A DNA stretch of 64,000 bases, from positions 1 to 64,000 of the forward strand of contig CAIVEH010000236.1 in the NCBI GenBank assembly GCA_903904855.1. Reading direction: 5' to 3'. Made by a program: the position numbers and the translations under genes. The notes beneath the pieces are model-generated. The model was not told the DNA's origin. It saw only the letters and a list, made by a program, of their open reading frames with translations, and searched no databases. Origin of the DNA: an uncultured Bacteroidota bacterium (GTDB lineage: Bacteria; Bacteroidota; Bacteroidia; Chitinophagales; Chitinophagaceae). The first letter of the stretch is position 1; every line of letters starts with the position of its first letter. Of the stretch, positions 6,246 to 37,746 are shown one piece after another.

Positions 6246-8114
6246 TTGCATAGAATTACCATACTATATAAAACAATATCGCTTCTATTTTTCCTGCTCG
6301 TTTTCTCAGCGGTTGCCCCCTCTATTGTTTATGGGCAGAGGCTGAGCTTAGAGGATAGTATCAGCTTCAGTAAACTTCATTTCACCCACAATAAATTTGT
6401 AAATAATATTTTCCAGCAGGCAGTCAATTCAATGAAGAAATCGCCCGATGGTCAGAATGGTTATACGGGCAAAAGTGAAGACCCTTACCTGCCCTATGAG
6501 GGTAAAATCATCAGGCATATCTATATTGAGCCCATCAACTTCAACAGATCTTTCCAGGACACCAGCAAGCGCGACAACAGTTTTGCTGCCAGAGCGGGCA
6601 ACCGATTGCACAAACATTCCCGCAGATTTGTGATACGGGACAATGTTTTTATTGAGGAACACCAGCCGCTTAACGCCTATAAACTGGCCGATAATGAACG
6701 CTATATTCGTTCCAGAGCTTATATACACGATGCCCGTATTATTATCGACACTTTAGAGAATAACCCTGACTCTGTAGATATTACCATATTCACACAAGAC
6801 CTGTTCAGCATTGGCGGCGGGGGAGCGTCAAACGGGTTTAACCATGTCAATCTGAATCTGTATGATGCAAACCTTGCAGGACTGGGACAGCAGGTAGATG
6901 CCACAGGTATATATGACTACAACCGCACACCGATATGGGGATACGGCGGGTTTTACAGGAAGTATAATATTATGCATTCATTTACTGATGTTACTGTTGG
7001 GTACAGCACTATGAATATCAGCGGTTATACCCATGAAGAAGAAACAACACGGTATTTCTCGCTGGGCAGGCAACTGATCTCACCTTACAGCCGGTATGCG
7101 GGGGGACTCACACTGAGCCAGAATGAAAATTACAATAGCTATCATATTCCCGACAGTATTGCTTACCTCTATAAGTATGATTTGTATGATGTTTGGGCAG
7201 GCTACAATCTGGGCATTAAATTACTTACTGCAACCAATAACACTATCCGCGACCGCCGCTTTTTTGCCCTTCGATATTATAAACGCGATTTTCAGGAAAC
7301 TCCCTACCAGATTGGCAACAGGTTCGATCCTGTTTTCAACAGTACACAGGCGGTGCTGGGCCAGTTTACTTTTTTCAGGCAAGACTATTTCAAAACCCAA
7401 TATATATATGGGTTCGGCACCACCGAAGATCTGCCATATGGTTACAACCTGGCTGTAACAGGAGGCTGGCACAGGCAGCTGAATATGCAACGTGCTTATG
7501 GAGGTATAAGCGCGTCGGAATATGTAGCAACACACCGTGGAGACTTTATTCAGTTCTACTTGCGCAGCGGTGGTTTTCTGTTTAAAAACAAAGTTCAGGA
7601 TGGAAGTATTCTGCTGGGGGCCACTGCCTTCAGCCGTTTATTTTTTCTCAACAGCACCAAAATACGGCAATATATAAATCTTAACTTCACCTACCTTGGC
7701 AACAGGGTAACCTCTGCTCCACTGAAGGTTAACAACTTCTATGGCATACGTGGCTTCCTTTCCGATTCAGCATATGGATCCCGGCGGTTCAGCCTGCAGT
7801 TGGAAACTGAATTTTATATAAAATTTAAATTGCTGGGTTTCCAATTTGCACCTTTCCCATACTGCGACCTATCTGTAATAACTCCTGAGAATCAACCCTA
7901 TTCCAAATCAGAATTATATACCGGATTAGGCGGCGGCTTCCGTACCCGTAATGAAAACCTTACTTTCGGCACAATAGAAGTACGGGCTTTTTTCTTCCCT
8001 GTTGCACCAAACAATATGAGCGGATTCAAAGTAGTTGTCAACAGTAATATCCAGTATCGCTACTCCAGCAACTATATCACTCCTCCCGAACTGGTGCGCC
8101 TGAATGATCAGTGA
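6246..8114 (+). CDS. Outer-membrane beta-barrel protein with POTRA-like N-terminus (surface-antigen type)
   Basis: A 622-residue exported protein with signal peptide ending near SIVYGQ. The middle section (IRHIYIEPINF, then NERYIRSRAYIHDARIIIDTL and VDITIFTQDLFSIGGGG) resembles a POTRA domain of the Omp85/TamA family, and the rest is alternating aromatic strands typical of a 16-strand barrel, ending YRYSSNYITPPELVRLNDQ. The start at TTG 6246 is the only one that keeps the whole signal peptide; no in-frame ATG exists before residue 63. It converges with the GH3 gene, with only three bases between the stops. The substrate or role is unknown. Confidence 0.7.
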   Translation: MHRITILYKTISLLFFLLVFSAVAPSIVYGQRLSLEDSISFSKLHFTHNKFVNNIFQQAVNSMKKSPDGQNGYTGKSEDPYLPYEGKIIRHIYIEPINFNRSFQDTSKRDNSFAARAGNRLHKHSRRFVIRDNVFIEEHQPLNAYKLADNERYIRSRAYIHDARIIIDTLENNPDSVDITIFTQDLFSIGGGGASNGFNHVNLNLYDANLAGLGQQVDATGIYDYNRTPIWGYGGFYRKYNIMHSFTDVTVGYSTMNISGYTHEEETTRYFSLGRQLISPYSRYAGGLTLSQNENYNSYHIPDSIAYLYKYDLYDVWAGYNLGIKLLTATNNTIRDRRFFALRYYKRDFQETPYQIGNRFDPVFNSTQAVLGQFTFFRQDYFKTQYIYGFGTTEDLPYGYNLAVTGGWHRQLNMQRAYGGISASEYVATHRGDFIQFYLRSGGFLFKNKVQDGSILLGATAFSRLFFLNSTKIRQYINLNFTYLGNRVTSAPLKVNNFYGIRGFLSDSAYGSRRFSLQLETEFYIKFKLLGFQFAPFPYCDLSVITPENQPYSKSELYTGLGGGFRTRNENLTFGTIEVRAFFFPVAPNNMSGFKVVVNSNIQYRYSSNYITPPELVRLNDQ

Positions 8115-8117
8115 TAC

Positions 8118-9614
8118 TTAAGCTATCCATTCGGCAAGTGCATCAGCTATCTTTCTGTCGTTGCTCAGCCTTGGCACTTTATTTTGTCCCCCCAGTTTGC
8201 CAATAGATTTCATGTATCCGATAAATGCACCCTTTTGCATAGATCGCACTTTCAGTGTCTGAAGTATGTGCCCGATAATAAGGTCTTCATAATAAATGTT
8301 CTTCTGCCTCAGGTGGTTATTCAGTGATGTTGCAAAGCCCTCCATATCTGCGGGTGGAGTATCAAACTCTATAAACCATTCATGATACGGCAGCCCCTCA
8401 CTAACCTGGATAGCTGGCGCTATTGTAAACTCAATTATGTGCGTATTAAATTCTGCCGAAACCTTATTCATAGCATATTCCACTTCTTCTGCTATAACAT
8501 GCTCTCCAAAGGCCGATATAAAATGTTTGGTACGCCCGGTTACTGCAATACGGTATGGATCTATGCTTACAAACTTTACAGTATCACCTATGCTATATCC
8601 CCACAAGCCTGCATTGGTACTAACCACCAGTGCATAATTTTCACCGGTCTTTACTTCTCCCAATGACAGTCTTACAGGATTTTCTTTACCTACATCTGCA
8701 ACCGGTATAAATTCAAAAAAGATACCCGAATTTGTGTTCAGCAACAACCCTTCATGCTTTGGCTTATCCTGAAAAGCGAAAAAGCCTTCCGATGCCGGAA
8801 AAGTCTCAATCATGTCTATGTGGCCGCCAATGCTATCCAGCAGTTTGGTTTTATAGGGTTCAAAGTTTACACCGCCGTGCACTATGACCTGCAGCGCAGG
8901 GAACAATTCCTTTATTTTTTTTCCATCATTGCGCTCGCTGAGCCAGTCGAAATACATTTGCATCCATGGTGGTATGCCACTGATGAGGGTCATGTTTTCG
9001 CCCATTGTTTCCTGCACTATTTTCGCCAATTTTGTTTCCCAGTCTTCAATACAATTAGTCTCATAAGAAGGGAGCTGGTTGCCACGCAGATACCTGGGCA
9101 CAAAATGATTCACAATTCCGCTCAGCCTGCCTGTTGGTATACCCCCTACTCTTTCCAATTCAGGTGAGCCCGATAAAAAAATCATCCTGCCATCAGCAAA
9201 TGAACTGTTTCCGCTCTCGGCCATATAGCACAGCAGTGCATCGCGTGCGGTATTTATATGATTGGGAATAGAGTCGCTGGTTATTGGTATATATTTTACA
9301 CCGCTGGTAGTCCCCGATGTTTTGGCAAAGTAAATAGGCTTACCTTTCCAAAGCACATTCTGGTCGCCGTTTTTTATTTTGTCTATATATGGTTTGAAAG
9401 CTTCATAATCACGCACCGGAACTGCTTTTTTGAAATCCTCATAAGTCTTTACACTTTGCAGTCCATGATCTTTACCAAATAATGTGCGGGCGCCAGTCTT
9501 AACCAGGCTTTGTAAAACGGCCAGTTGGTCTGCAACAGCCGTAGCCATACCCTTCCTAACCTTTGAGTGAATAATAGACGCATAAGGCTTGGCAAGAAAT
9601 GATTTGATCTTCAT
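8118..9614 (-). CDS. GH3-family acyl-acid amido synthetase-like protein
   Basis: A member of the GH3 auxin-responsive promoter superfamily, adenylate-forming enzymes that in plants join amino acids to acyl acids. The ATP-binding block FAKTSGTTSGVKYIPIT, the ETFPASEGFFAFQ block and the terminal GHILQTLKVR and GKLGGQNKVPRLSNDR segments are all present. I place the start at ATG 9614, giving 498 residues, because MKIKSFLAKP is the usual beginning in Bacteroidota; the frame is open upstream to 9713, but those 33 residues look non-conserved. The bacterial substrate is not known. It is convergent with the barrel gene and divergent from rplU. Confidence 0.85.
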   Translation of the reverse strand: MKIKSFLAKPYASIIHSKVRKGMATAVADQLAVLQSLVKTGARTLFGKDHGLQSVKTYEDFKKAVPVRDYEAFKPYIDKIKNGDQNVLWKGKPIYFAKTSGTTSGVKYIPITSDSIPNHINTARDALLCYMAESGNSSFADGRMIFLSGSPELERVGGIPTGRLSGIVNHFVPRYLRGNQLPSYETNCIEDWETKLAKIVQETMGENMTLISGIPPWMQMYFDWLSERNDGKKIKELFPALQVIVHGGVNFEPYKTKLLDSIGGHIDMIETFPASEGFFAFQDKPKHEGLLLNTNSGIFFEFIPVADVGKENPVRLSLGEVKTGENYALVVSTNAGLWGYSIGDTVKFVSIDPYRIAVTGRTKHFISAFGEHVIAEEVEYAMNKVSAEFNTHIIEFTIAPAIQVSEGLPYHEWFIEFDTPPADMEGFATSLNNHLRQKNIYYEDLIIGHILQTLKVRSMQKGAFIGYMKSIGKLGGQNKVPRLSNDRKIADALAEWIA

Positions 9615-10457: not shown

Positions 10458-10718
10458 ATGGCAACAGCAAAGAAGGCAGCTCCTGCGAAAAAAGCAGCAC
10501 CTGCACCAAAGAAAGCAGCTCCTAAAAAAGCTGCACCAGCTAAGAAGGCAGCAGCCCCTAAGAAGGCAGCTCCTGCCAAAAAAGCAGCTGCTCCGAAAAA
10601 GGCAGCTCCTAAAAAAGCAGCAGCACCAAAGAAAGCCGCAGCTCTTAAAAAAGCCGCAGCTCCAGCTCCTGCTAAAAAGAATGCTGGCCCTAAGAAGGCA
10701 GCCGCTAAAAAGAAATAA
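10458..10718 (+). CDS. Histone H1-like Lys/Ala/Pro repeat protein
   Basis: The 86 residues are almost entirely AKKAAP/PKKAA repeats beginning MATAKKAAPAKK; over a third is lysine. Such proteins resemble the C-terminal tail of eukaryotic histone H1 and the bacterial AlgP and Hc2-type DNA-binding tails, and are expected to neutralise DNA charge. There is no folded domain. The DNA repeats at codon level too, so length variation by slippage is likely. It lies between rpmA and a strong terminator at 10737-10771, so it can be read through from the ribosomal promoter. A similar tail is found on the DNase II-like protein at 29620-30900. Confidence 0.85.
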   Translation: MATAKKAAPAKKAAPAPKKAAPKKAAPAKKAAAPKKAAPAKKAAAPKKAAPKKAAAPKKAAALKKAAAPAPAKKNAGPKKAAAKKK

Positions 10719-25250: not shown

Positions 25251-27122
25251 TCACTTAAACAATTCCTCCTTACTCCTTGGCCGCTGGTTGTCCAGCCACT
25301 TAAACTTGCTGAGTCGCATATTCGGCAGGTCGGCCTTCTCAAGCGGTGTTAATACATGCCTGGGCTCCTTATCAAATTTGATGTGCTGCATTTTCTGGTC
25401 GGCGAAATAAATAAACATCCGCACACTACTGCCCTGGTCCACATCCATATATGCGCCCTTCTCATCTTTCACATAATAGATACACTCGGCATCCGGCTTC
25501 ACAATGATCTGTTTTACAGCATTGCTGTCGAAATATGCAGTCAGTGTTTTGCCCTGAACCTGGTCCCATAGCTGCGCCTTTTCCGGCCCCGATCGCGATG
25601 CCACAAATGCATTATTAGGCACATACATTTTCCGTAGTGTCGAGCTGTCCAGTTGCAGCAATATAGTATCACCGGTTATCTGGCTTTTATGCGACCATAC
25701 TATAGGGCTATACATCATCCTTATCATGGAGTCGGCCCGTGTATAGCACACACTGTCGCACTTACCCTGCATCGAGTCGGAGAATATCAGCACATGATGA
25801 TATCCGATAAAATAAAGCGGTGCAGTAGTATCAACAGCTACAGAGTCAGTTGATGCCACCTGCATCAATTCAACAGATCCTTTTTTATTCTTTTTATCTT
25901 TCTTTTTTTCCACTTTGAGGGCCTTTGGCACCCCTGCCCTCTTTACATTCTCAGTATAACCCGTATCCGATACCGAGAGTGGCACATGGTATCTTGTACT
26001 CGCCACAGGCACAGGCAGGTCATAAGCTACAGCATCAAGCGAATCTTTTTGATTTTTAAGAGAGCTGTCCGGTCTATGCCTTCGGCTCCCTGCCTTGAAT
26101 GAACTATCTCCTTGAATTTGAATTTTACTCCTAACCATCGGCGCTGAATAAAAGGTGTCCGCCCGTATATACAATGTATCCTTACCATTTACCTGTTCCA
26201 GTACCGGCTTGTTGGTGGCCCACAGCTTACGTTGTTTCTGGTAATACTCAGCCCTGCCGCAAAACATCCTTGAATGCCTGCCGGTATCAATGGAAATTAC
26301 CCGTCCACTAATGCTGGCTATCGCAAGGCCAAATCCCGTCTGTTTATCATAATTCAATACTGAATCACTCTCAATATACTGCCCATTGTTCCAGATGCCC
26401 GAGAAACCCTTGAAATGCGCTTTCCCCAACTTTCCGTCATACCATCCGTCCGATGTCTCCAGTACCGATCGGCCACTATCTCTTGTTACCACAGAGTGTG
26501 CATAAAAGCTAGTCACCTTTGTTTCGGTGTTATACTGTACATCTTCACTCTTTATCCGGTATTGTGTGTCTATTATGACTACATTATGCTTAAACCTTGC
26601 CTGTTTCAGGGGTATATTATATTCGCCCGTTCTGCTGGTTACTGTTGTTGAGTCATTATAAAGTTTGCCTCCCTTATCATACACCGCAATCCTGCTCCCC
26701 ATATTGTAGGTTAGCTCTGCACAGTCAAGGTTATTTTTACCATCAGTCATTCGCACATTACCACTCATAAAAGCCATCTTGGCCTGGGTGGTATACTTCA
26801 GGTAGTCGCTGGTGCCATGGGTGCCTCCCTGCTGCGCTATCCGCACATGCCCGAACCCCTCAAAATTATGTGTGGTATTGTTCATCAGAGCGCTGTCGCA
26901 ATACAGTGTATCTGTGCCTTGCTGTAGTATCACATTCCCTTTTAGATGATTGAATTCCCCCGAATCAGTTTTTATTACTGTTATTGTATCCATGTTCACT
27001 ATCCTCACCGGCACCATTGTGGTATCTTCCTTTTGGGCAAAAGCAGAACTACAGAAAAACAAAAAACAAAATACCGGTAAGATGCAGGCAGGTTGCAGGT
27101 ATTTCATCAATGTTTTTTTCAT
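25251..27122 (-). CDS. OstA/LptA-like periplasmic protein
   Basis: A 623-residue exported protein with signal peptide ending SSAFAQ. The N-terminal half (about 40-270) is an OstA/LptA-type jellyroll rich in repeated LKGNVILQQGTDTLYCDSA and SGNVRMTDGKNNLDCAELTYN segments, characteristic of LPS-transport bridge proteins. The second half carries a basic linker (KKDKKNKKGS) and another beta region (YYVKDEKGAYMDVDQGSSVRMF). It probably helps carry lipopolysaccharide to the outer membrane. It lies 123 bases downstream of the MCE gene on the same strand. Confidence 0.85.
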   Translation of the reverse strand: MKKTLMKYLQPACILPVFCFLFFCSSAFAQKEDTTMVPVRIVNMDTITVIKTDSGEFNHLKGNVILQQGTDTLYCDSALMNNTTHNFEGFGHVRIAQQGGTHGTSDYLKYTTQAKMAFMSGNVRMTDGKNNLDCAELTYNMGSRIAVYDKGGKLYNDSTTVTSRTGEYNIPLKQARFKHNVVIIDTQYRIKSEDVQYNTETKVTSFYAHSVVTRDSGRSVLETSDGWYDGKLGKAHFKGFSGIWNNGQYIESDSVLNYDKQTGFGLAIASISGRVISIDTGRHSRMFCGRAEYYQKQRKLWATNKPVLEQVNGKDTLYIRADTFYSAPMVRSKIQIQGDSSFKAGSRRHRPDSSLKNQKDSLDAVAYDLPVPVASTRYHVPLSVSDTGYTENVKRAGVPKALKVEKKKDKKNKKGSVELMQVASTDSVAVDTTAPLYFIGYHHVLIFSDSMQGKCDSVCYTRADSMIRMMYSPIVWSHKSQITGDTILLQLDSSTLRKMYVPNNAFVASRSGPEKAQLWDQVQGKTLTAYFDSNAVKQIIVKPDAECIYYVKDEKGAYMDVDQGSSVRMFIYFADQKMQHIKFDKEPRHVLTPLEKADLPNMRLSKFKWLDNQRPRSKEELFK

Positions 27123-27245
27123 GCTTCTGTTATTTCCGCTCTTAATCCGGATACGATCAGTGAATTTGTTTTGCCTTTATATGGTTTCTTTCTCCCTGAT
27201 ATCCAAAGGGTATCATACCCCTGATTCATCCATTATAGTCCACTT

Positions 27246-28190
27246 TTACGACTTCTTTCTGCCAAAAAATGAAAGAGAAATATACCGGCTCGGACGGGCA
27301 CGCATATCAGTTTCCAGGCTATCCAGCATTTTAACTGCATGATTCATGTTGATGTATAAATCCTTATTGTTCACAAGCAGTCCAGCGGTGCCTTTGCTGT
27401 CATTTATTTTCTCAGCAATGTTTTTGTATTCTGTAAGTGTCGACCTTATATCTTCCACCATTTTCTCAATGTGCGCATTGTTCAGATGAGTAGTTATACC
27501 GTTCACATTAGTCAGTATATGGTTGATGGTATCATTGTTTTTTGCCAGGTTGGCAGTTACGCTGTTGGCATTGTGAATCATTGAATTGATCTCACTGGTT
27601 TGTTTCTTAAGATCACTTGTCAGTTGTGCCAGATTATTGGCTGTAAGGTTTACCGCATGCAGCGCCTCTGCTATTTCCCGTTTATTCTCCGCATTCATCA
27701 GGTCATTTACGCCGTTCAGGGTATTATCAATTGTAGAAATGGTCGATTTTAGTTCCCTCAGTCTTGGCGTCAGTTCAGATGATACATTATCCAGCATTCC
27801 ACCTTCCCTTGCTGCTTTTAGTTCATCACCTGCTTTCAGTGAACCAGGCCCGGGTCCGGGTATCAGCATTATCATTTTTGTACCCATTATGTCATAGGAA
27901 CCCAGTTTGGCTATCGTACCTTCAGGCAGTTCCAGGCCTTTGTTTATATCCAGCAGCACTTTTACACCTTTACCAGGCACCAGCTGCAGAGAGGCTACAT
28001 GGCCCACATTCAGCCCGTTTATCTGGATTACTGCTGAATTCTGAAGCCCTTCTACATTTTGATATATACAAAAATACTCCCTGTCTTTGGAAAAAATGTC
28101 TGCTCCGCTTAAAAATTTTAAACCCACAAAGAATATAATCAGCGCTATTGTTGCCAATACCCCGATCTTTACTTCTTTAGATATTATCAT
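27246..28190 (-). CDS. mlaD: MCE-domain (MlaD-like) lipid-transport protein
   Basis: The 314 residues have one N-terminal membrane anchor (VKIGVLATIALIIFFVGLKFL) and an MCE/MlaD domain (YQNVEGLQNSAVIQINGLNVGHVASLQL, about 40-115), followed by a long helical coiled-coil tail (ELTPRLRELKSTISTIDNTLNG and following). MCE proteins form rings that shuttle phospholipid between membranes. No MlaE or MlaF is nearby, which is usual in Bacteroidota, where mce genes are dispersed. A -7-like TAATTTTG on the minus strand at 28211-28218 may be its promoter. Confidence 0.87.
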   Translation of the reverse strand: MIISKEVKIGVLATIALIIFFVGLKFLSGADIFSKDREYFCIYQNVEGLQNSAVIQINGLNVGHVASLQLVPGKGVKVLLDINKGLELPEGTIAKLGSYDIMGTKMIMLIPGPGPGSLKAGDELKAAREGGMLDNVSSELTPRLRELKSTISTIDNTLNGVNDLMNAENKREIAEALHAVNLTANNLAQLTSDLKKQTSEINSMIHNANSVTANLAKNNDTINHILTNVNGITTHLNNAHIEKMVEDIRSTLTEYKNIAEKINDSKGTAGLLVNNKDLYINMNHAVKMLDSLETDMRARPSRYISLSFFGRKKS

Positions 28191-28509
28191 AATATTTTAA
28201 ATAATGTTTGCAAAATTACGCAAAAGAAGACACCCCTTTTGCCTTATTATTCATTCCTGGCCTTGTTATATAGTTAAAATTAACGCTCTTTTACTTTTTC
28301 AAAGATAGTTCGTTTGCAGAATGATCATTTTCGTTACAAGTAGTTCCAATTGATTGTCATTCCCGACATTAAATAATTGACTGCCAAAAGTTACCTTTGC
28401 TACAAACATTCAGGAAACAACCTTAATGCGGAATCCGCATTATAGTCTGTTTTACTGAATTACCGGCAAATTTAGATTAAAACAAGTGTATAAATTCTAA
28501 AATCAAACC
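28191..28509. other. Divergent spacer between mlaD and the glycosyltransferase
   Basis: No gene. It holds the -7-like TAATTTTG for mlaD (minus, 28211-28218), a -7-like TACCTTTG for the glycosyltransferase (plus, 28392-28399) and the palindrome at 28424-28442. Confidence 0.5.
28424..28442. promoter_or_regulatory. 19-bp palindrome in the glycosyltransferase leader
   Basis: TAATGCGGA and TCCGCATTA are perfect complements around a single A. It is 25 bases after the -7-like TACCTTTG, inside the likely 5' leader, so it could be a protein-binding site for a dimeric regulator. It is too tight for a normal RNA hairpin. Confidence 0.4.
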
Positions 28510-29391
28510 TTGGTTTCCGTAATAATTATAAATTATAATACCTTTAACCTTACCTGCGATTGCATCGCATCTGTAATTCAGTATACCAAAGAGGTACCCT
28601 ACGAAATAATACTAGTCGATAATGCCTCCCCTAAAGATAACCCCGATGATTTTCTGATCCGGTTCCCGGGCATAAAACTCGTTAAAAGCCCCGATAACGG
28701 CGGCTTTGCCAAAGGAAACAACCTCGGCATACAGCACTCCTCCGGAGATATTATCCTGCTGCTCAACTCCGATACCATCCTCAGCGAAGACAGTATCAGC
28801 AAAGCAGCAATAGCCCTTAACCACGATCCGCAGATGGGCGCCCTTGGGGTAAGGCTCATTTTTCCCGATGGCGTAGTTCAGTCATCCGCACGCAGGTTTC
28901 GTAGCATCCGTAACGAAATCCTCGACCTCCTTCGCCCTTTCCTCATGCTCATGCCCTACCGCAGGCGGGCCGAAATGATGCTTAACCAGTACTTCAAAGG
29001 CGATTTTAATACTTATTGCGACTGGGTAAGTGGCGCATTTATCATGTTCCGTACATCCATACTCAGTCAGCTCGAAGGAAAAAAGCTCGACGAACGGTTT
29101 TTCATGTACAGCGAAGACGAACTGTGGTGTTACCAGTTTATGGAGCTCGGCTACAAAAATTATTATCTCTCCGAAACCCCGGTAATTCACCTGCTGAATG
29201 CCAGCGTAGAACCCGCCAAGCAATTGCGCCTCCTCAAAACCTACATAAAGCACCAGATGATCATCATGGACTATATCCATGGGAAAAACTGGTACTACTA
29301 TATTTTTAAGGCCATATTTACCGCCAAGGAGATGTTCCGCTACTACGTCAAATTATTCCTCGACAAAGTCTTTAACTACAAACTCAGGTAG
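28510..29391 (+). CDS. Family 2 glycosyltransferase
   Basis: A 293-residue GT-A enzyme of the rhamnosyl/galactofuranosyl-transferase-like branch. It begins MVSVIIINYNT with the nucleotide-binding strand, carries the DNAS(P)KDN loop, the metal-binding LLNSD, and the acceptor-side VSGAFIMFRTSIL and FFMYSEDELWCYQFMELGYK blocks. The start is TTG at 28510. The C-terminal tail is basic and amphipathic, for membrane contact. No polysaccharide cluster surrounds it. Confidence 0.9.
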   Translation: MVSVIIINYNTFNLTCDCIASVIQYTKEVPYEIILVDNASPKDNPDDFLIRFPGIKLVKSPDNGGFAKGNNLGIQHSSGDIILLLNSDTILSEDSISKAAIALNHDPQMGALGVRLIFPDGVVQSSARRFRSIRNEILDLLRPFLMLMPYRRRAEMMLNQYFKGDFNTYCDWVSGAFIMFRTSILSQLEGKKLDERFFMYSEDELWCYQFMELGYKNYYLSETPVIHLLNASVEPAKQLRLLKTYIKHQMIIMDYIHGKNWYYYIFKAIFTAKEMFRYYVKLFLDKVFNYKLR

Positions 29392-29566
29392 CCAAACAGA
29401 CTATTTTTCCACTCAATCTGCCCAATTATTTTAGTGCTTAAAAAGCTTTTGGGGTCCCAAAATCTTGCGTCTAAACCCCTACAAGGACATTTAAAAAATC
29501 AACAATAGAGACTTAGTAGTAAGAGTAGGAATGCGGTAATTTTTAGCCATCATTCCTTATAACAAA

Positions 29567-29593
29567 GCAGGCCGGGAATTTATCCCAGCCTGC
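29567..29593 (-). terminator. Terminator of the DNase II-like gene
   Basis: An 11-bp stem (29567-29577 and 29583-29593, one G-T pair) with a five-base loop, GCAGGCCGGGA on one arm. It is 26 bases after the stop codon of the DNase II gene and is followed by a T-containing stretch on the minus strand. Confidence 0.75.
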
Positions 29594-29619
29594 CCGATTT
29601 AATATTTGCTATTTATTGC

Positions 29620-30900
29620 TTACTTTTTCTTTGGCGCCGCCTTCTTCGGGGCTGCTGCCTTTTTCGGGGCTGTTGCTTTTTCAGGAGCCGCTGCTTTTTT
29701 TGGCGCTACTGCCTTTTTCGGGGCTGCTTTCTTAGGAGCCGCTTTAGCCGGAGCAGCCTTTTTTGATACAGCTTTTTTAGGTGCAGCAGTAACAGCAGCT
29801 TTTGGCGGCGCCTCATTATGCCGGTGATGTGTTTTGGCTATCACATCATGGGCTTCGTCTCTCGAATGTCCGGGAGGAGCCAATACCAGCCCTGCTTTTG
29901 AGAGGCCCTGCCACAGTATTTTGTTCTGGAAGGCTATTGTGCCACCACCGCGTTTTCTTTGCGAAATCATACGGTTTATATCGCCGATACATACATACTG
30001 CTCATGGATTGTGACACCCCATTTGGCATGGTCATGAGTCTCAGGCCAGGCCCAGTGAGCGCCCATAAACCCAAGGTTCACATACTTGATGTCGAAGGTT
30101 TTGTGTATACCGTCGCTGTCGGCCATAGGAGGTATCGGGCCACGTATCCAGGTTTCGTCATCCATGTCGTCTTTCAGGGTTGGCCCTACCAGGTCGTTCC
30201 AGAAATCTTTATTCCATTCTTTGTTCTTAGCAATAACACTGAATGGCATATTGCCAATAGTTTTCAAGTTGATGGTATCACCATCTCCCTGGGGTTTAGG
30301 ATCCAATGGTTGCGTGAGCAGGTAGAGCGGATCAGTTAATGGCAGGTCGGCGGGTGTATGAGAATAGTATACCTGCGGCTCCTGGTGATGCAGCATCTGT
30401 TCTGCAATCTTTGAGGCAGTGGCGAGGTCGAGCGAAAGGCACAAATAAGTCTGGCCGTACTTAGGTGTAGGATCTTCGGCTGCGCCCGGATCAATAAATT
30501 TCGGCCAAGAATGCAACAACCAGTAGGCGGTCTTGGAATCGGTATCATACGCAATCACTCCTTTAGTGTGACCTTTTGAGCCATCGTCCTTGCGGTTGGT
30601 ACTTTCGGGCATTTCATCGTTGTAAAGTATCCAGCCTGTTGACTTTGGCGGATTCTTAAAATTTTTGAACACCGATTCGAGTGTTTCATTAAGGGCCCCT
30701 TTACCGCTGTTAATAACAAACGGCGATTTGGTTACGTTCCTGTTCCTGGGATCAGGATCGCCATCAATTTTCGAGTCATAATAAACGTATTCGTAGCCTG
30801 TGGCTGCGTCGTTTCCCGCTCCTTTACCGAGCTGGGGTACTTTGTACATGAACCACCAGTCAACTGGTTGGCCACTTTCGTTTAGAGCTGATATCTTCAT
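29620..30900 (-). CDS. DNase II-like nuclease with a histone H1-like Lys/Ala/Pro tail
   Basis: A 426-residue protein. Residues 5-335 match the deoxyribonuclease II family (ALNESGQPVDWWFMYKVP, GYEYVYYD, GWILYNDE). Both catalytic H-x-K motifs are present, H111-T-K113 in GHTKGVIAYD and H291-A-K293 in DHAKWGV, together with YWLLHSWPKF, TYLCLSLDL and CIGDINRMISQRKRGGGTIAF. DNase II cuts double-stranded DNA without metal. The eukaryotic enzyme is lysosomal, but here no signal peptide is seen and an in-frame stop lies just upstream of the ATG. From about 365 the protein turns into PKKAA/AAPKK repeats like the H1-like protein at 10458-10718. It is monocistronic; a -7-like TACTTTG is at 30917-30923 on the minus strand. 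Secretion by another route is possible. Confidence 0.9.
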   Translation of the reverse strand: MKISALNESGQPVDWWFMYKVPQLGKGAGNDAATGYEYVYYDSKIDGDPDPRNRNVTKSPFVINSGKGALNETLESVFKNFKNPPKSTGWILYNDEMPESTNRKDDGSKGHTKGVIAYDTDSKTAYWLLHSWPKFIDPGAAEDPTPKYGQTYLCLSLDLATASKIAEQMLHHQEPQVYYSHTPADLPLTDPLYLLTQPLDPKPQGDGDTINLKTIGNMPFSVIAKNKEWNKDFWNDLVGPTLKDDMDDETWIRGPIPPMADSDGIHKTFDIKYVNLGFMGAHWAWPETHDHAKWGVTIHEQYVCIGDINRMISQRKRGGGTIAFQNKILWQGLSKAGLVLAPPGHSRDEAHDVIAKTHHRHNEAPPKAAVTAAPKKAVSKKAAPAKAAPKKAAPKKAVAPKKAAAPEKATAPKKAAAPKKAAPKKK

Positions 30901-31106
30901 GAAAATAAATTTTTGGCAAAGTACTCAATTATTTCAATTTTCATACTTTATACTGAAGTGTTTAACAACTTTTTTTTAAGCAGTTTTAAAGAATGCTACA
31001 GGCAACAGAAATAAACCCAGTGAATGTAAAAATCAGGTAGTATAAAAGCCAATCACTGAAAGAAATGAAAAGGATATTATGTTGCAAAAATCAGGTGATG
31101 ATTAAT

Positions 31107-33143
31107 TCAGGCAATCTGCACTTTCTGGTTCCGCGCCAGCAGATAGGTTTCTCCTGCCAGCATTATCAGGGCCAGGATCACACATACCTTCCAGAGCGGA
31201 AAGGGCTCATCACTGTCGGAAATGTGGCCGGTATCACTGATATTCAGCCATTTGATATTGTCGCCTTTCCAGTCTTTTTTAAGTACACTTATATCCCTGA
31301 AATCCATCACCGATTCGCGCTTGTCCTGATTAAGTGCTATCCGGGTACTGTCACCGCCCGGCGAGCTGAGTGAATAAAAACCCGGTTGCTGAATTGCCTG
31401 GTCGGCAAACACATCAAGTCCTGCGCCATTGGGGCGTTGCGGAGGAATAATATCCACTCCCCTCGCATAAATGTGCACTGTATTCCGCTCAGTTACATTG
31501 GCCATAGGCAGGTATACTGCCTGCTGTGCGCCGGCGGTTATGGCATATATACTGCTTCCCCCGCTCTGCATGGCCATCTCATAAAGAAAGGGCGTAAAAA
31601 AGTAACTGCCGGGGAAATTACCCGATTGAAGGTCGGCCGAAGTAGCACAGATATAAAGTTGCCCCCTCGATGGGGTATACCTTGCCAGCAAGGGATCGCC
31701 ATTTCTGAAACTCAGTACCGACTGCTGATTGGCGCTCAAACCGGCATGAATATTGTAATGCCAGTTGGCCACAGGCAATTGTACATTGTCGGGAATCTTT
31801 TCAAAGAGATCCTTTACAAGAGCGCTGCCTTGCTGCAACGAACTGGCGGTTTGCACCGCAGTATCTATTGCATCAATGCGAATATCACCAACTGATTTAA
31901 GGCCATCGTTTAATGCCTGTATATTGCCGGTTCTGCCAGGGAAAATACAGATGCTCTGGCCCTGCTGAAGGGCTTCATTGAGTGTTTTGCCGAGGGCATC
32001 ATCTAAATGAGTTATGCCATTCAGAATTACCAGATTGTACTGTTTCCATGCCTGGTAACTGGCAGGCGAAGAACTAATATCCACCGGGTTCAGCCTGAAC
32101 CCATTATAAGCCCTGAAAGCAGCCTGTATATATGGGTTGGGCTGACCTTCGTTCAATACCAGTACAGACAGCGATGGTGAGCTACGGGCTGTTATCCTGA
32201 AGGTATCATCGAAACGCATACCTGCATCATTAACAGTAAGTTCAATATTCTGCCACTCGGCATTATTTACCTGAAAACTGAGCGTATCACTACGTTCATT
32301 CTTTTCAGTGAAACTGAGTGAAGCGGCGCTTTTCACCTGGCCATTTATGGCAAGGTTCAGCACAGGGTTGTCTTTTGGCACCTTACCGGCCATGTGAGTG
32401 CGCACTACCAGCGCATTGCCTTTGCCGGTCTGCAAAACAGGTGTGGTAAGAAAAGCTGTATCGATATAAATATCGGCGGCCTCATCAGTTTGCACAGGCA
32501 GCCCTGAAAAGGTTATGTTCTTAAGAAGCGCTTTATCAGGTATTACCGGAAAAGCGTTTAGCTGGAAATCGGAATAGTAGTACAAATCAGCTTCGCCCGC
32601 GCCTTCGTTCTGCAGAATGCTCTGGGTGGTTTGGAGTACCTGGTTCACAGTTCGCAGCGAAGAACTTACATCGGTATTATTAATCTCCCTGATTACTTTA
32701 TCTGCAGGTTCTGCCCTGAAACTGGCGGGAATATCATTGGTAAGAAATACAAACCTGCTGCCCGGCACCGAATGTAATACCTGTTTGCGTGCGGCTTCCC
32801 TGGCAATATCCAACACACTCCTGGCGCCTTTCTTGGCGCTCATGCTATAGCTGTTGTCCAGATAAATAACCTGTATCTTATTTCCGGCAGTTTTCGTGTT
32901 TGCCTTATTGAAGAAGGGCTGGGCAAAAGCAAGTATCAGGGTTGCAAGAAACAGCAGGCGCATAGCCAGCAGCCATTTGTAACGCACCTGACTTTGTTTG
33001 CGGCTGTTGAGTTGTATATTCTTCAAAAACCGGGTGTGCGGAAACAATACAACCTTATACTTTCGCAGGTTGAATAAGTGTATAATTACCGGTATAGCCA
33101 GCGCCAGACCCGCAACCAGAAAAAGAGGATATAGAAAACTCAC
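31107..33143 (-). CDS. BatA-domain (aerotolerance-type) membrane protein with von Willebrand A-like region
   Basis: The N-terminus MSFLYPLFLVAGLALAIPVI followed by a second span (LLAMRLLFLATLILAFA) is the double-transmembrane BatA domain. A VWA-like region follows with an incomplete metal site, LDNSYSMS (D-x-S-x-S), and a long periplasmic beta-rich part ends in a last membrane span (VCVILALIMLAGETYLLA). I choose the GTG at 33143 because family members begin with M-FLYPLF; the frame is open to a TTG at 33212, but this overlaps the dead toxin gene. The protein has 678 residues. Its function in Bacteroidota is unknown; BatA-family operons have been linked to oxygen tolerance. Confidence 0.82.
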   Translation of the reverse strand: MSFLYPLFLVAGLALAIPVIIHLFNLRKYKVVLFPHTRFLKNIQLNSRKQSQVRYKWLLAMRLLFLATLILAFAQPFFNKANTKTAGNKIQVIYLDNSYSMSAKKGARSVLDIAREAARKQVLHSVPGSRFVFLTNDIPASFRAEPADKVIREINNTDVSSSLRTVNQVLQTTQSILQNEGAGEADLYYYSDFQLNAFPVIPDKALLKNITFSGLPVQTDEAADIYIDTAFLTTPVLQTGKGNALVVRTHMAGKVPKDNPVLNLAINGQVKSAASLSFTEKNERSDTLSFQVNNAEWQNIELTVNDAGMRFDDTFRITARSSPSLSVLVLNEGQPNPYIQAAFRAYNGFRLNPVDISSSPASYQAWKQYNLVILNGITHLDDALGKTLNEALQQGQSICIFPGRTGNIQALNDGLKSVGDIRIDAIDTAVQTASSLQQGSALVKDLFEKIPDNVQLPVANWHYNIHAGLSANQQSVLSFRNGDPLLARYTPSRGQLYICATSADLQSGNFPGSYFFTPFLYEMAMQSGGSSIYAITAGAQQAVYLPMANVTERNTVHIYARGVDIIPPQRPNGAGLDVFADQAIQQPGFYSLSSPGGDSTRIALNQDKRESVMDFRDISVLKKDWKGDNIKWLNISDTGHISDSDEPFPLWKVCVILALIMLAGETYLLARNQKVQIA

Positions 33144-33204
33144 CGGACAAATATAGGTGAATGGCTGTAAAAGCGGGGGTATTTTAACGTTTTCAATAGT
33201 TGGA

Positions 33205-33498
33205 TCAATCAATAAACCATTTCTCTGCGGTTAGTATTATATTGGTGATAACAATAGTATATGATAATTTATCCAGGTTGAAATGAATATTAAATGAAAA
33301 ATTATTCGGATGGATTAAGCATATATTTCTCTATCTTATTGCATATGCTTCAGGATTATTCATAAGTCGGATTATAGCTTCATTTATTGAAGCAGCAAAT
33401 TTTTTCTCTAGTTCGTTTTACTGGTATTTATACCATGCTTTTGCAGCTTTTACGTTCTATGCAACTACTTTAAGATAAATGATCTTGTAAGTTGGCAT
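33205..33498 (-). pseudogene. Decayed ParE/RelE-type toxin gene
   Basis: From an ATG at 33496-33498 the minus strand reads MPTYKIIYLKVVA, stop, NVKAAKAWYKYQ, stop, NELEKKFAASINEAI, IRLMNNPEAYAIR, stop, RNI, HPNNFSFNIHFNLDK, SYTIVITNIIL. Without the three stops (TAG, TAA, TAG) this is a full-length toxin of the RelE/ParE superfamily as found in Bacteroidota (AWYKEQ-, NP--YA-RYRN, HP-FPYNIHF, VVITAI). The ATG overlaps the antitoxin TAA. The toxin is dead. Confidence 0.85.
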
Positions 33499-33726
33499 TA
33501 ATCATCAACTTTATCCAATTCAGCTAATAACTCTTCAATTGGAATAACCTTTTGGGATAGTCAGATATTTCCAGTAAATTTTTGTCAATAATATTTTTTC
33601 CCATTGAGGTAATTCTCCATCTATATTATCAACTTCAGGGTACTTATTTCTACTGATATTCCACTCCTCAATCTGAATGATTACCGCAGTTGTTTGTCCG
33701 GAATTATCTGATACATAGTGGAGCAT
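33498..33726 (-). pseudogene. Decayed antitoxin gene of the same module
   Basis: ATG at 33726 starts MLHYVSDNSGQTTAVIIQI and then EEWNISRNKYPEVDN and LPQWEK, the N-terminal part of the Bacteroidota antitoxin family that partners ParE-like toxins. After the A-run at 33597-33602 the reading frame breaks, a second frame gives NIIDKNLLEISDYPK, and a third frame gives IPIEELLAELDKVDD then TAA at 33498-33500. Two frameshifts have therefore disrupted it. The TAATG overlap with the toxin start is intact. Confidence 0.82.
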
Positions 33727-33826
33727 GATAGCAATTTTAAGGAAAAATCTAATAAGGCTAAAAGTTCTCCAAGGCCAATTGTACCTGATTTTGGTTAGTA
33801 AATGTTTCAAACGGCCTATAAATCAT

Positions 33827-33834
33827 TACTTTTG
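33827..33834 (+). promoter_or_regulatory. Putative -7 element TACTTTTG
   Basis: It matches TAnnTTTG, 18 bases before the B12-binding protein's ATG. The -33 position has only a partial match. Confidence 0.4.
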
Positions 33835-33851
33835 CCTCCCAATACAGGTAA

Positions 33852-34277
33852 ATGAATATAAATAAACAAAGACCTATAAGAGTATTGGTAGCCAAGGTTG
33901 GCCTCGACGGACATGACAGGGGCGCTAAAGTTGTGGCTACTTCGCTCAGGGATGCAGGTATGGAAGTAATATATACCGGCCTGCGGCAGACACCTGAAAT
34001 GGTTGTGAATACTGCCTTACAGGAAGATGTGGATGCAATAGGTATCAGCATCCTCAGTGGTGCGCATATGACTTTGTTCCCTAAAGTGCTTCAGTTAATG
34101 AAGGAAAAAGGCCTTGAAAATGTATTGCTTACCGGTGGTGGTATAATACCTGAAGAAGATATGGAGCAATTGCATTCTATTGGTGTTGGACGGTTGTTTG
34201 CACCCAGTGCTCCGACAGCGGGTATTGCAGATTACATCAGCTCATGGGTTAAGGAGCACAGAAGTGAACTGCTGTGA
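33852..34277 (+). CDS. Cobalamin-binding domain protein (methylmalonyl-CoA mutase small C-terminal type)
   Basis: 141 residues forming a single B12-binding Rossmann domain. The cobalamin signature is D19-G-H21-D-R-G24, with H21 as the lower axial ligand, followed by SILSGAH and TGGGI. It resembles the separate small subunit of (iso)butyryl- and methylmalonyl-CoA mutases. The catalytic large subunit is not in the window. It precedes enoyl-CoA hydratase by 64 bases on the same strand, which fits a fatty-acid or branched-chain acid pathway. The cobalamin adenosyltransferase at 36217-36774 would supply its cofactor. Confidence 0.9.
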
Positions 34278-34341
34278 GACAGATGGCAATTGATAATTAG
34301 AAAATTGAATTGAATCAAAACAAATAATAAATTTCACAAAA

Positions 34342-35121
34342 ATGTACAAAACATTACTTACAGAGCTGGAGAAAGGCACATTGGTTATAACAGTGAACAG
34401 GCCTGACAAAATGAATGCTTTAAACAAAGATGTTATTGAAGAACTTGGCATTGTATTGGATGAAGTATATAACAACGATGAAATAAAATCGGCCATTATC
34501 ACCGGTGCAGGCGAGAAAGCTTTTGTGGCAGGCGCCGACATCAGTGAGTTTATTTCTCTTGATGCAGCAGGTGGATCTGGCCTTGCCAAAAAAGGACAGG
34601 TTAATGTATTTGATAAAATAGAAAATTGCCCAAAGCCGGTAGTAGCTGCTGTTAATGGTTTTTCATTAGGTGGGGGTTGCGAGTTGGCGATGGCCTGCCA
34701 TTTCAGGGTAGCCTCAGCGAATGCAAAATTCGGTCAACCAGAAGTGAATCTTGGACTGATTCCAGGTTATGGTGGCACACAGCGCCTTACACGCCTCATA
34801 GGCAAAGGGAAAGCAATGGAAATGATCATGACGGCTGATATGGTGGGCGCTGAAGATGCGAAAGCGCTCGGGCTTGTAAATCATGTATTTGCGTCGGAAG
34901 AACTTCTGGCAAAAACAAAAGAAATATTGCAAAAAATACAATTAAAAGCTCCTGTTGCAGTGGCACATGTTATTGCCTGCATTAATGATTCAGCAAATGG
35001 TGATCATCATGGATTTGAGCATGAAATTGAGCGTTTTGGGGCTTGTTTTACTACAGATGACATGAAAGAAGGGGTTAATGCGTTTCTGGAAAAAAGAAAA
35101 CCTGTGTTTAAAGGAAAATAA
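34342..35121 (+). CDS. Enoyl-CoA hydratase/isomerase family protein
   Basis: 259 residues of the crotonase fold. The oxyanion-hole blocks ITGAGEKAFVAGADISEF and VNGFSLGGGCELAMACHFRVAS are present, then FGQPEVNLGLIPGYGGTQRL, with Glu residues at both usual hydratase positions. It hydrates trans-2-enoyl-CoA in beta-oxidation or related pathways. It shares the direction of the B12-binding gene and OM protein on either side. Confidence 0.93.
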   Translation: MYKTLLTELEKGTLVITVNRPDKMNALNKDVIEELGIVLDEVYNNDEIKSAIITGAGEKAFVAGADISEFISLDAAGGSGLAKKGQVNVFDKIENCPKPVVAAVNGFSLGGGCELAMACHFRVASANAKFGQPEVNLGLIPGYGGTQRLTRLIGKGKAMEMIMTADMVGAEDAKALGLVNHVFASEELLAKTKEILQKIQLKAPVAVAHVIACINDSANGDHHGFEHEIERFGACFTTDDMKEGVNAFLEKRKPVFKGK

Positions 35122-35152
35122 TTTATAACTTCAACCTCAAATTTTTCCGTAC

Positions 35153-36103
35153 ATGCAGGCCAGAGTTATCAGAAACTTAGTGGCGCTTTCATTTTGTATG
35201 GCTACAGCCTATGCAACCAGCGCCCAAGATGCACACAGACTTTATGTTGAACCAGACGGTTGGGCTATTGGTATGAACATAGGCTTAAGTGACCTGTGGG
35301 GTAATATAGGCACCGCTTCTCCGATTGAACATTACAGCAACAGCAAGTACTTTGATAAGATTACCATGATGGGTGGTTTGTTTGGCCGGTATAATGTGCA
35401 CCCTGGGTTTGGACTACGCGGACAGCTCAATTATGGATCTTTATATGCAACAGATAAATGGAACTATGACCTCGCCAAGAAAGCAAGTACTCAGGGCGAG
35501 GATGCTTACCAGCGATATGCCCGCGCTCAAAACGTAAAAGATGTTATGTTTGAAGGAACCTTACTGATGGAGCTTACTCCCCGCAGATTGAATCCTGAAG
35601 GCAAAAAAGCATTTAAACGCGGACAGCCATTCATAGGCCTTGGTATATCATATTTTCACTTTACTCCTTACAGTACTATAGCCGCAAGCCAGACATGGGT
35701 AAAAACCTATGATCTTCACCTTGAAGGGCAGGGATTCGGTCCAACATATCCTAAACAATATTCGTTATGGGCGCCTGCAATACCAATGGTAATCGGTTAC
35801 AGGTGGGATTTGGGCCAGCATCTGAATCTTGGTATTGAATATATGTTCAGGTATACCTTTTTGAAATACCTTGATGGTGTTAGTGGTAAGTACATTGACC
35901 CCACAGCATTTGCAGCACATCTGACTCCCGCGCAAGCAAAAACTGCAGCAGAGGTAGCAGATAAAGGTTACTGGTATGGTCTTGAGCCTCAAAATGCAGC
36001 TGGCAACATGAGAGGTAATTCGGCATTTACTGATAAGTATTCTACTATTTCAATTACCATTTATTTCAAAGTAGCTACCCGCACAGCAAAGTGGTGGCAT
36101 TAA
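35153..36103 (+). CDS. Outer-membrane beta-barrel protein of unknown function
   Basis: 316 residues with signal peptide MQARVIRNLVALSFCMATAYATSAQ and alternating strands (GWAIGMNIGLSDLWGN, GGLFGRYNVHPGFGLRGQLNYG, FIGLGISYFHFTPY, LNLGIEYMFRYTF) ending ISITIYFKVATRTAKWWH. It is an eight- to ten-strand barrel of the kind seen next to gliding or adhesin genes, with a short helical insert (AAHLTPAQAKTAAEVADK). The gene follows enoyl-CoA hydratase by 31 bases. No known family is assigned. Confidence 0.75.
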   Translation: MQARVIRNLVALSFCMATAYATSAQDAHRLYVEPDGWAIGMNIGLSDLWGNIGTASPIEHYSNSKYFDKITMMGGLFGRYNVHPGFGLRGQLNYGSLYATDKWNYDLAKKASTQGEDAYQRYARAQNVKDVMFEGTLLMELTPRRLNPEGKKAFKRGQPFIGLGISYFHFTPYSTIAASQTWVKTYDLHLEGQGFGPTYPKQYSLWAPAIPMVIGYRWDLGQHLNLGIEYMFRYTFLKYLDGVSGKYIDPTAFAAHLTPAQAKTAAEVADKGYWYGLEPQNAAGNMRGNSAFTDKYSTISITIYFKVATRTAKWWH

Positions 36104-36178
36104 TTGATTAATGGCTGAATTACTGAATGGCTCAATTTCTTAATTGCCGGAATTATTCTGTTTTACCATTAATTAAGC

Positions 36179-36206
36179 AATTGAGTAATTATGTAATTGA
36201 GTAATT
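36179..36206. repeat. Tandem 12-bp direct repeat
   Basis: AATTGAGTAATT occurs at 36179-36190 and again at 36195-36206. Related words (AATTACTGAATGG, CTCAATTTCTTAATT) fill the whole 36104-36206 spacer, giving a small low-complexity intergenic repeat cluster. Confidence 0.5.
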
Positions 36207-36216
36207 CCCAAAAGTA

Positions 36217-36774
36217 TTACAACCTTGCCCTCCAGGGAATTTCAGATGCGTTATTCAGGTGAGAGATATAACGGGAAAGCACAAAAAGATAATCTGATAA
36301 CCGGTTAAGGTATTGAATTATCAGTGGCGGTATAAATTCGTCTTGTTCCTGCATACCCACTGTTATTCTTTCAGCACGGCGGCATACACAGCGGGCCACA
36401 TGGCAGGTGGATGATGCAAGGTTGCCACCAGTAAGTATAAACGAGCGCATTTCGGGCAGCACTGCATTCATTTCATCAATCTGCTCTTCCAGCCAGGTAA
36501 CATCGCTCTCATGCAGGTCGGGTAGCTTTATATTTACTTCTTTATCAGGGTTGGTAGCCAGAGCTGAACCAATGGTAAATAACCTGTCCTGTATTTCTCG
36601 TATTGATTCCGATATCTTTTCATTGGCACACAGATCGTTCACCATTCCAAGATAAGAATTGAGCTCATCTACTGTGCCGTAGCTTTCAATGCGGATATGA
36701 CTTTTAGGCACCCGCACACCACCTATCAGACTGGTACCACCCTTATCACCTGTTTTTGTGTATATCTTAAACAT
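36217..36774 (-). CDS. pduO: ATP:cob(I)alamin adenosyltransferase, PduO type
   Basis: Adds the adenosyl group to cobalamin to make coenzyme B12. The 185 residues begin MFKIYTKTGDKGGTSLIGG and contain RIESYGTVDELNSYLG, LASSTCHVARCVCRRAER and NRLSDYLFVLSRY, diagnostic of the trimeric PduO-type transferase. It probably serves the B12-dependent mutase indicated by the B12-binding protein at 33852. It converges with the OM protein gene at its left. Confidence 0.95.
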   Translation of the reverse strand: MFKIYTKTGDKGGTSLIGGVRVPKSHIRIESYGTVDELNSYLGMVNDLCANEKISESIREIQDRLFTIGSALATNPDKEVNIKLPDLHESDVTWLEEQIDEMNAVLPEMRSFILTGGNLASSTCHVARCVCRRAERITVGMQEQDEFIPPLIIQYLNRLSDYLFVLSRYISHLNNASEIPWRARL

Positions 36775-36921
36775 AAACTACAAAGCCCTGAATGGGCTTC
36801 CCTTTTTTATCTGAAAATTTCCTTTTCCTGAATATTATTGCTATGTTTTATTGGATGAGTTCGGGATTTTCCTTCACCGTTACTATTGACACAGTTTATA
36901 CCGATTTTGGCAATACTTTTG

Positions 36922-37620
36922 CTATGCCATTTGTGCCACCTGTTTTGCATCCGTTTCCACCATCCCATCTCTAATCCTGATTACCCTGTGCGTATATTTT
37001 GCAATATCCTCTTCATGGGTTACCAGCACTACTGTATTGCCTTGCTTATGTATCTGCCCGAATAATTCCATTATTTCAATAGATGTTTTACTGTCCAGGT
37101 TACCTGTCGGCTCATCCGCCAGCAGCAATGACGGGTTGTTGATCAATGCCCTGGCAATAGCAACTCTCTGGCTCTGACCGCCTGATAATTCGTTGGGTTT
37201 ATGATGTGCCCTGTCGGTAAGACCAACCTTTTCCAACATTGCACGGGCTCTTTCTTCTCTTTCTTTTCGGCTGGCACCAGCATAAATAAGCGGCAGGGCT
37301 ACATTTTCCCATGCAGTAAGTCGAGGCAGCAGATTGAACTGCTGAAACACAAACCCTATCTCCATATTACGTACATCAGCAAGCTGATCGTCGGCCATGT
37401 TGCTCACATTCTTTCCATTCAGGACATATATACCTCCGCTGGGAGAATCGAGGCAACCCAAAATATTCATTAGCGTAGATTTACCTGAACCAGACGGCCC
37501 CATCAATGCCACATATTCATTCTGACTGATAAGCAAATCAATCCCTTTGAGTACAGGTAGTTCCTGCTTACCCAGATAGTAGCTTTTGCGAATATTATTG
37601 AGCCTTATTACCTCTTTCAT
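36922..37620 (-). CDS. ABC transporter ATP-binding protein (LolD/MacB type)
   Basis: 232 residues with Walker [10 protein letters not shown] at 41-49, the Q-loop, signature [15 protein letters not shown], Walker [10 protein letters not shown] and the switch His (VTHEED). The [29 protein letters not shown] block places it with LolD/MacB/FtsE-like ATPases that drive FtsX-like permeases. No permease gene neighbours it here. Confidence 0.92.
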
Positions 37621-37746
37621 TTTACAGTCCTGAGTCTTTAGTATTTAGTCTAAAGTAAGCGAATCTCCATAAAAAAGAATTCGAAGACATTTTAGCTAAA
37701 TACTATTGTATTAATTTTCAAAAATACACATAATTTCACCCTTTGT

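Follow-up and report, generated by a model that had tools for sequence, protein, structure and literature searches.

A bacterial DNase II with a histone H1-like Lys/Ala/Pro tail and no recognizable signal peptide in an uncultured Chitinophagaceae bacterium

Results

The DNase II gene and its catalytic core

The window, by which we mean the whole stretch of 64,000 nucleotides that was analysed, carries on its minus strand a single open frame of 426 codons with an ATG start, which by its sequence is a bacterial DNase II. The features at this locus and a tail-like open reading frame (ORF) elsewhere in the window are given below with their evidence.

29620..30900, minus strand: DNase II gene, 426 aa, with a C-terminal Lys/Ala/Pro tail (ORF, Pfam and alignment to PDB 5i3e)
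29824..30900, minus strand: catalytic core, residues 1-359, beginning directly at the enzyme domain (PF03265, 5i3e and N-terminal hydrophobicity)
30562..30570, minus strand: first H-x-K motif, HTK, residues 111-113 (alignment)
30022..30030, minus strand: second H-x-K motif, HAK, residues 291-293 (alignment)
29623..29823, minus strand: H1-like Lys/Ala/Pro tail, residues 360-426, net charge +19 (composition)
10458..10718, plus strand: H1-like ORF of 86 aa, rich in Lys/Ala/Pro, that follows the genes for ribosomal proteins L21 and L27 (tail-like sequence)

The PF03265 (DNase_II) profile matches residues 6-335 with an E-value of 3.2e-74 over profile positions 3-318 of 326, and its score of 250.5 bits against a curated cut-off of 23 places the protein within this domain family. 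The only other Pfam row (E 0.036) falls under its own cut-off, and the one NCBIfam row, the tail against valine--tRNA ligase (E 0.33), is a chance match. The structure 5i3e ('Putative deoxyribonuclease-2') aligns with residues 1-359 (E 2.2e-135); its fold is presumably phospholipase-D-like, and the window core is related to it by this sequence match. Both the profile and the structure alignment bear out the DNase II domain proposed in an initial annotation made from the sequence alone, and the two H-x-K motifs placed there at H111 and H291 are indeed found, as HTK and HAK. H111, K113, H291 and K293 belong to the 69 invariant columns of an alignment of 28 DNase II sequences. No loss of either motif in relatives was seen: each is present in 48 of the 49 rows of the DNase II table, which has the window protein but not L004 and L044, and the two gaps lie in a partial (L039) and an interrupted (L051) sequence.

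The N-terminus

An in-frame stop sits 8 codons before the ATG with no ATG, GTG or TTG between them, and the best 12-residue Kyte-Doolittle mean found when a hydrophobic N-terminal stretch was sought in the window protein was 0.11, against 2.68 and 2.67 in two lipoprotein controls. The signal peptide of lysosomal and secreted DNase II is accordingly not recognizable in the window protein, as the initial annotation had it. The same holds for all 45 DNase II rows, window included, none of which has a signal-peptide-like stretch by this measure of hydrophobicity, as distinct from a trained signal-peptide predictor; no 12-residue mean exceeded 1.18 near the start, or 0.92 when counted from the aligned start, and the proteins open with the domain itself. 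A paper on Trichinella DNase II places the Burkholderia pseudomallei enzyme with those members for which no signal peptide is predicted (PMC4148230). Because this has already been published for a Burkholderia DNase II, the missing signal peptide is ordinary, and judging from the sequences we take it to be a property of the bacterial DNase II family, not special to the window gene.

The Lys/Ala/Pro tail and stand-alone H1-like ORFs

The tail comprises 67 residues (K20 A25 P11 R1, with 2 acidic residues), and its net charge of +19 stands against -9 for residues 1-359. As a long Lys/Ala/Pro segment with almost no acidic residues it is H1-like, in agreement with the earlier description. The underlying DNA has a weak periodicity of 18 bp and 15 bp and its codons are mixed, each of the four for Ala and the two for Lys being used; at a period of 5, residues repeat at 45% of positions and codons at only 16%. 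As codons repeat so much less often than residues, the repeat has little of the look of a recently duplicated stretch of DNA.

In composition the tail resembles the 86-aa stand-alone ORF at 10458-10718, for which Pfam gave no match; the two are the same kind of sequence, and any tie of this ORF to the DNase would be putative. The genome has the codon pattern for K-K-A-A-P-K-K at 5 sites (2 in the DNase II gene, 2 in the window H1-like ORF and 1 in another H1-like ORF) and its reversed control at 0 sites, and across 60 genomes the pattern was found in 37, own included, and the reversed control in none. Copying of the tail from the ORF at 10458-10718 was considered and found no support: the best shared-codon count of 18, against a shuffled mean of 15.2, was reached by 26 of 300 shuffles, and BLASTP with default handling gave no alignment.

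Sequences of this kind were also observed elsewhere. Paired motif matches with the 87-base spacing of the ORF at 10458-10718 occur in at least three genomes of the same genus (G015, G026 and G030). Another contig of the window's own genome encodes a 182-aa Lys/Ala/Pro protein with an acidic C-terminus (L053:1315-1863, minus strand), whose match to chlamydial HC2 (PF07382) is weak and below the cut-off (E 0.0012), and a third tail-like site of this genome, on contig C174 (L060:1498-1602, minus strand), consists of 34 residues of Ala-Pro-Lys-Lys-Glu repeats that include acidic residues too.

Distribution of DNase II and an N-terminal version of the H1-like segment

A scan of contigs gave 44 DNase II loci in Bacteroidota, Pseudomonadota, Acidobacteriota, Myxococcota and Ignavibacteriota, with L046 not placed. 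The gene is rare, PF03265 being found, own genome included, in 4 of 395 genomes across the phylum, in 3 of 396 genomes of the order and in 4 of 149 near relatives, all of them within the window's genus, in which 4 of 35 genomes, again with its own, have DNase II. Neither phage records, searched for phage relatives of DNase II, nor viral contigs yielded a match, and the plasmid search returned one record, a Burkholderia replicon of 880 kb; with no phage record, no viral contig and just one plasmid record, carriage by phages or plasmids was set aside.

The four enzymes of the genus differ at their ends. Besides the window's, with its 67-residue tail, G028 encodes a DNase II with a 55-residue Lys/Ala/Pro tail, that of G001 has a short Lys/Arg end, and G026 carries a distant DNase II (L004:910-2547) that PF03265 matches with an E-value of 8.6e-18 over profile positions 25-235 only. 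This last protein has H-x-K motifs at 266 and 469, the second outside the Pfam match, and K, A and P account for 26%, 37% and 13% of its first 125 residues, a segment with no acidic residue and a net charge of +33 that is followed by a Thr-rich linker. No solved structure matched it by sequence and no plasmid match was found, and its core, compared with 395 genomes, returned itself and two weak partial matches and no second full match. The N-terminal segment of L004 and the window tail could hardly be one inherited feature, because they lie at opposite ends of the protein; from these sequences, the pairing of an H1-like segment with DNase II therefore probably arose at least twice, with both forms now present in one genus.

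The tail across DNase II relatives

A C-terminus was called strongly basic when the last 25 residues had a net charge of +6 or more. Such an end is present in 12 of 43 DNase II rows, window included, and in 5 of 267 neighbouring ORFs, an enrichment with a Fisher p of 4e-8 that ignores relatedness and uses neighbours that are mechanical picks, some probably not genes; by eye, none of these five is Lys/Ala/Pro-rich. Under a strict K-rich tail rule, the counts are 7 of 49 DNase II rows (two being the same protein) versus 0 of 280 neighbouring ORFs. The 43 rows exclude L002 and L049 (the same proteins as L013 and L029), L038, L039 and L051 (incomplete or interrupted) and L037 (with a divergent end), and the set of 267 neighbours omits the loci L001, L002, L044 and L052.

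The tail is thus not conserved in homologues, a check suggested by the initial annotation: basic ends are commoner on DNase II than on neighbouring ORFs, but 31 of the 43 rows lack one. Homologues without the tail, one of the results named in that annotation as refuting its reading, do exist, and they include the nearest relative, L005, which is 75% identical and has only ten residues beyond the core. As most relatives and the nearest one are without it, the tail is accessory. The claim that it matters nevertheless draws support from its repeated appearance, including the N-terminal version in the same genus. Mapped on a 45-row tree of the cores, the tail has to change state 11 times, and well-supported branches force 6 or more of these changes. 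Its presence does not cluster, since shuffled states need 10.7 changes on average and 380 of 500 shuffles were as low; this fits quick gain and loss, but also a tail of little effect.

Genomic neighbourhood

The window DNase II is flanked by genes for a glycosyltransferase and a BatA-type protein. GC content is 0.41-0.50 in the 500-base intervals overlapping the gene and 0.30-0.50 over 27000-34000, so the gene is no outlier, and recent foreign DNA was rejected on composition. When a 19-kb stretch of G026 was compared, matching DNA covered window positions 31111-33163 and 33782-37641 and halted at the end of the BatA-type gene, just beyond which lies the DNase II gene, and in a 19-kb stretch of G028 only the BatA-type gene (31135-33163) matched; no empty site was found. 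PADLOC, run on the DNase II and four neighbours, had no match for the protein and three of the neighbours, and the remaining MlaD-type neighbour matched a large number of unrelated, coiled-coil-like models, each only weakly, which leaves no convincing match to a defence family.

In other lineages, a PF04185 phosphoesterase recurs beside DNase II. Coordinates compared by hand place it no more than 5 kb from DNase II in 13 of the 31 searched genomes (32 loci given, with L042 not included) against an expected 0.17, and in at least two phyla; the loci are L006, L007, L010, L021, L022, L024-L028, L034, L035 and L046. In the Flavobacterium loci L024, L025, L027 and L028 the neighbour of DNase II is the genome's only PF04185 match, and when the Flavobacteria/Saprospiraceae and Mucilaginibacter groups are collapsed the count becomes 6 of 23. 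L029 and L039, which lie outside the 31-genome search, also have a phosphoesterase neighbour, and a second, weaker-matching phosphoesterase type is present in L006 (E 3e-11), L007, L010 and L039. PF04185 was sought in the window's genome without a match, and the phosphoesterase was rejected as a partner of the window DNase II. On the Burkholderia pyrrocinia plasmid (L052), DNase II was observed near tyrosinase-family, GTPase, metallophosphoesterase and ferritin-like genes, and in L040 (Acidobacteria) DNase II is followed by a protein similar to the ORF that covers this GTPase.

Discussion

A proposed mechanism

We propose, at about even odds for the model taken as a whole, that the window gene encodes an acid, metal-independent DNase that is silent in the cytoplasm and active after lysis or acidification, with an optional tail as its DNA tether. 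The enzyme would be a phospholipase-D-like acid endonuclease independent of metals, in which the two H-x-K motifs form one active site. With no Sec signal it would stay in the cytoplasm, where the near-neutral pH should keep it almost inactive, and upon cell lysis or in acid surroundings it could work, degrading DNA as a source of phosphate and nucleotides. The Lys/Ala/Pro tail may be an optional and repeatedly evolved DNA tether that raises retention, as the lysine repeats do in actinobacterial topoisomerase I. The sequences themselves show the domain, the motifs, the tail with its patchy and repeated occurrence, and the lack of a signal peptide; catalysis, its optimum at acid pH and silence near neutrality, the release of the enzyme on lysis and DNA binding by the tail are inferred, and the binding partner of the tail could be RNA or polyphosphate, not DNA.

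The recurrence of H1-like segments, found at opposite ends of DNase II within a single genus in which stand-alone H1-like ORFs occur as well, suggests that the natural place of the enzyme is on DNA. The recurring phosphoesterase neighbour points to DNA as a phosphate source, a link that comes only from other lineages because the window's genome has no PF04185 match. A bolder reading, which we hold to be unlikely, is that, within this genus and outside it, an H1-like segment has been repeatedly grafted, at either end, onto a cytoplasmic acid DNase, which would ride the nucleoid in life and digest it upon death or acidification. If true, such a nucleoid-riding DNase would be the bacterial equivalent of lysosomal self-DNA clearance and might provide phosphate for kin.

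Alternative explanations

The tail might instead be near-neutral, low-complexity sequence, a disordered C-terminus without a selected role that lengthens through slippage at codon repeats, which we regard as doubtful but worth serious consideration. Its unclustered presence on the tree, its absence from the nearest relative and the weak DNA periodicity are in favour of this, but its enrichment on DNase II over neighbouring ORFs (by a test that ignores relatedness), the mixed codons with residues repeating far more than codons do, and the similar segment that a further DNase II of the genus carries at its other end argue against it.

Export of the DNase II by a non-Sec route, such as contact-dependent injection, vesicles or a phage-tail-like device, so that it acts on the DNA of other cells or of the environment while the producer lives, seems unlikely. 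It would account for a nuclease without a signal peptide and be in line with the phosphoesterase recurring in other lineages and with the one Burkholderia locus that has tyrosinase-family and ferritin-like genes nearby, but no export-tag model matched in NCBIfam and the flanking genes match a glycosyltransferase and a BatA-type protein.

Use against incoming DNA, a role offered in the initial annotation, would make the DNase II an intracellular defence nuclease held on DNA, phage DNA included, by its tail, and its cytoplasmic location by sequence and patchy presence in the genus would suit this role. We consider it very unlikely, as PADLOC gave no match for the protein and, among its four neighbours, weak matches for the MlaD-type one only, no phage or viral relative was found, and the presumed acid optimum would leave the enzyme idle in the cytoplasm. 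Least probable of all is a tail whose main partner is polyphosphate or RNA, or one that acts as a tag for storage or solubility and keeps the enzyme inert until lysis. AlgP, another bacterial protein resembling histone H1, is reported to be linked to polyphosphate granules (PMC9239181), but an H1-like tail on a DNA enzyme would most simply bind DNA. A silent cytoplasmic acid DNase with an optional DNA tether remains our preferred reading.

Comparison with known systems

Both bacterial DNase II and H1-like tails on DNA enzymes have been described before, but we saw no report of the two together among the matches listed from the open-licence literature. With the structure of a bacterial DNase II already solved, the question raised here is why a cell would keep such an enzyme inside. 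The solved structures 5i3e and 5unb, which we take to be Burkholderia thailandensis DNase II, share with the window protein its whole core (residues 1-359) and both H-x-K motifs, but the chain of 5i3e, 358 residues long with 8 of them ahead of the aligned Met, stops at the point where the tail of the window protein starts. The DNase II of the Burkholderia pyrrocinia plasmid pBPJTT (WP_258285638.1) is 52.8% identical over residues 1-358, but in L052 its gene (8001-9056) runs on for just six codons past the match, counting the stop, and is therefore without a long tail. A Burkholderia DNase II is reported to act at acid pH with no need for metals.

Chlamydial Hc2 (PF07382) and other bacterial H1-like proteins have Lys/Ala-rich repeats like those of the tail but, unlike the window DNase II, are stand-alone DNA-binding proteins and not enzymes. 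Animal lysosomal DNase II has the PF03265 domain and paired H-x-K motifs in common with the window protein, and is not known to carry a Lys/Ala/Pro tail. Unlike the window protein, most animal lysosomal enzymes have a signal peptide, according to the Trichinella study (PMC4148230). A parallel to the tail is found in actinobacterial topoisomerase I, likewise a DNA enzyme with a C-terminus of H1-like lysine repeats, which in the Streptomyces enzyme stabilise it on DNA and raise its processivity (PMC7398561). The two enzymes are unrelated, and retention on DNA, shown for topoisomerase I in the same work (PMC7398561), would by analogy be the putative role of the tail on the window DNase II.
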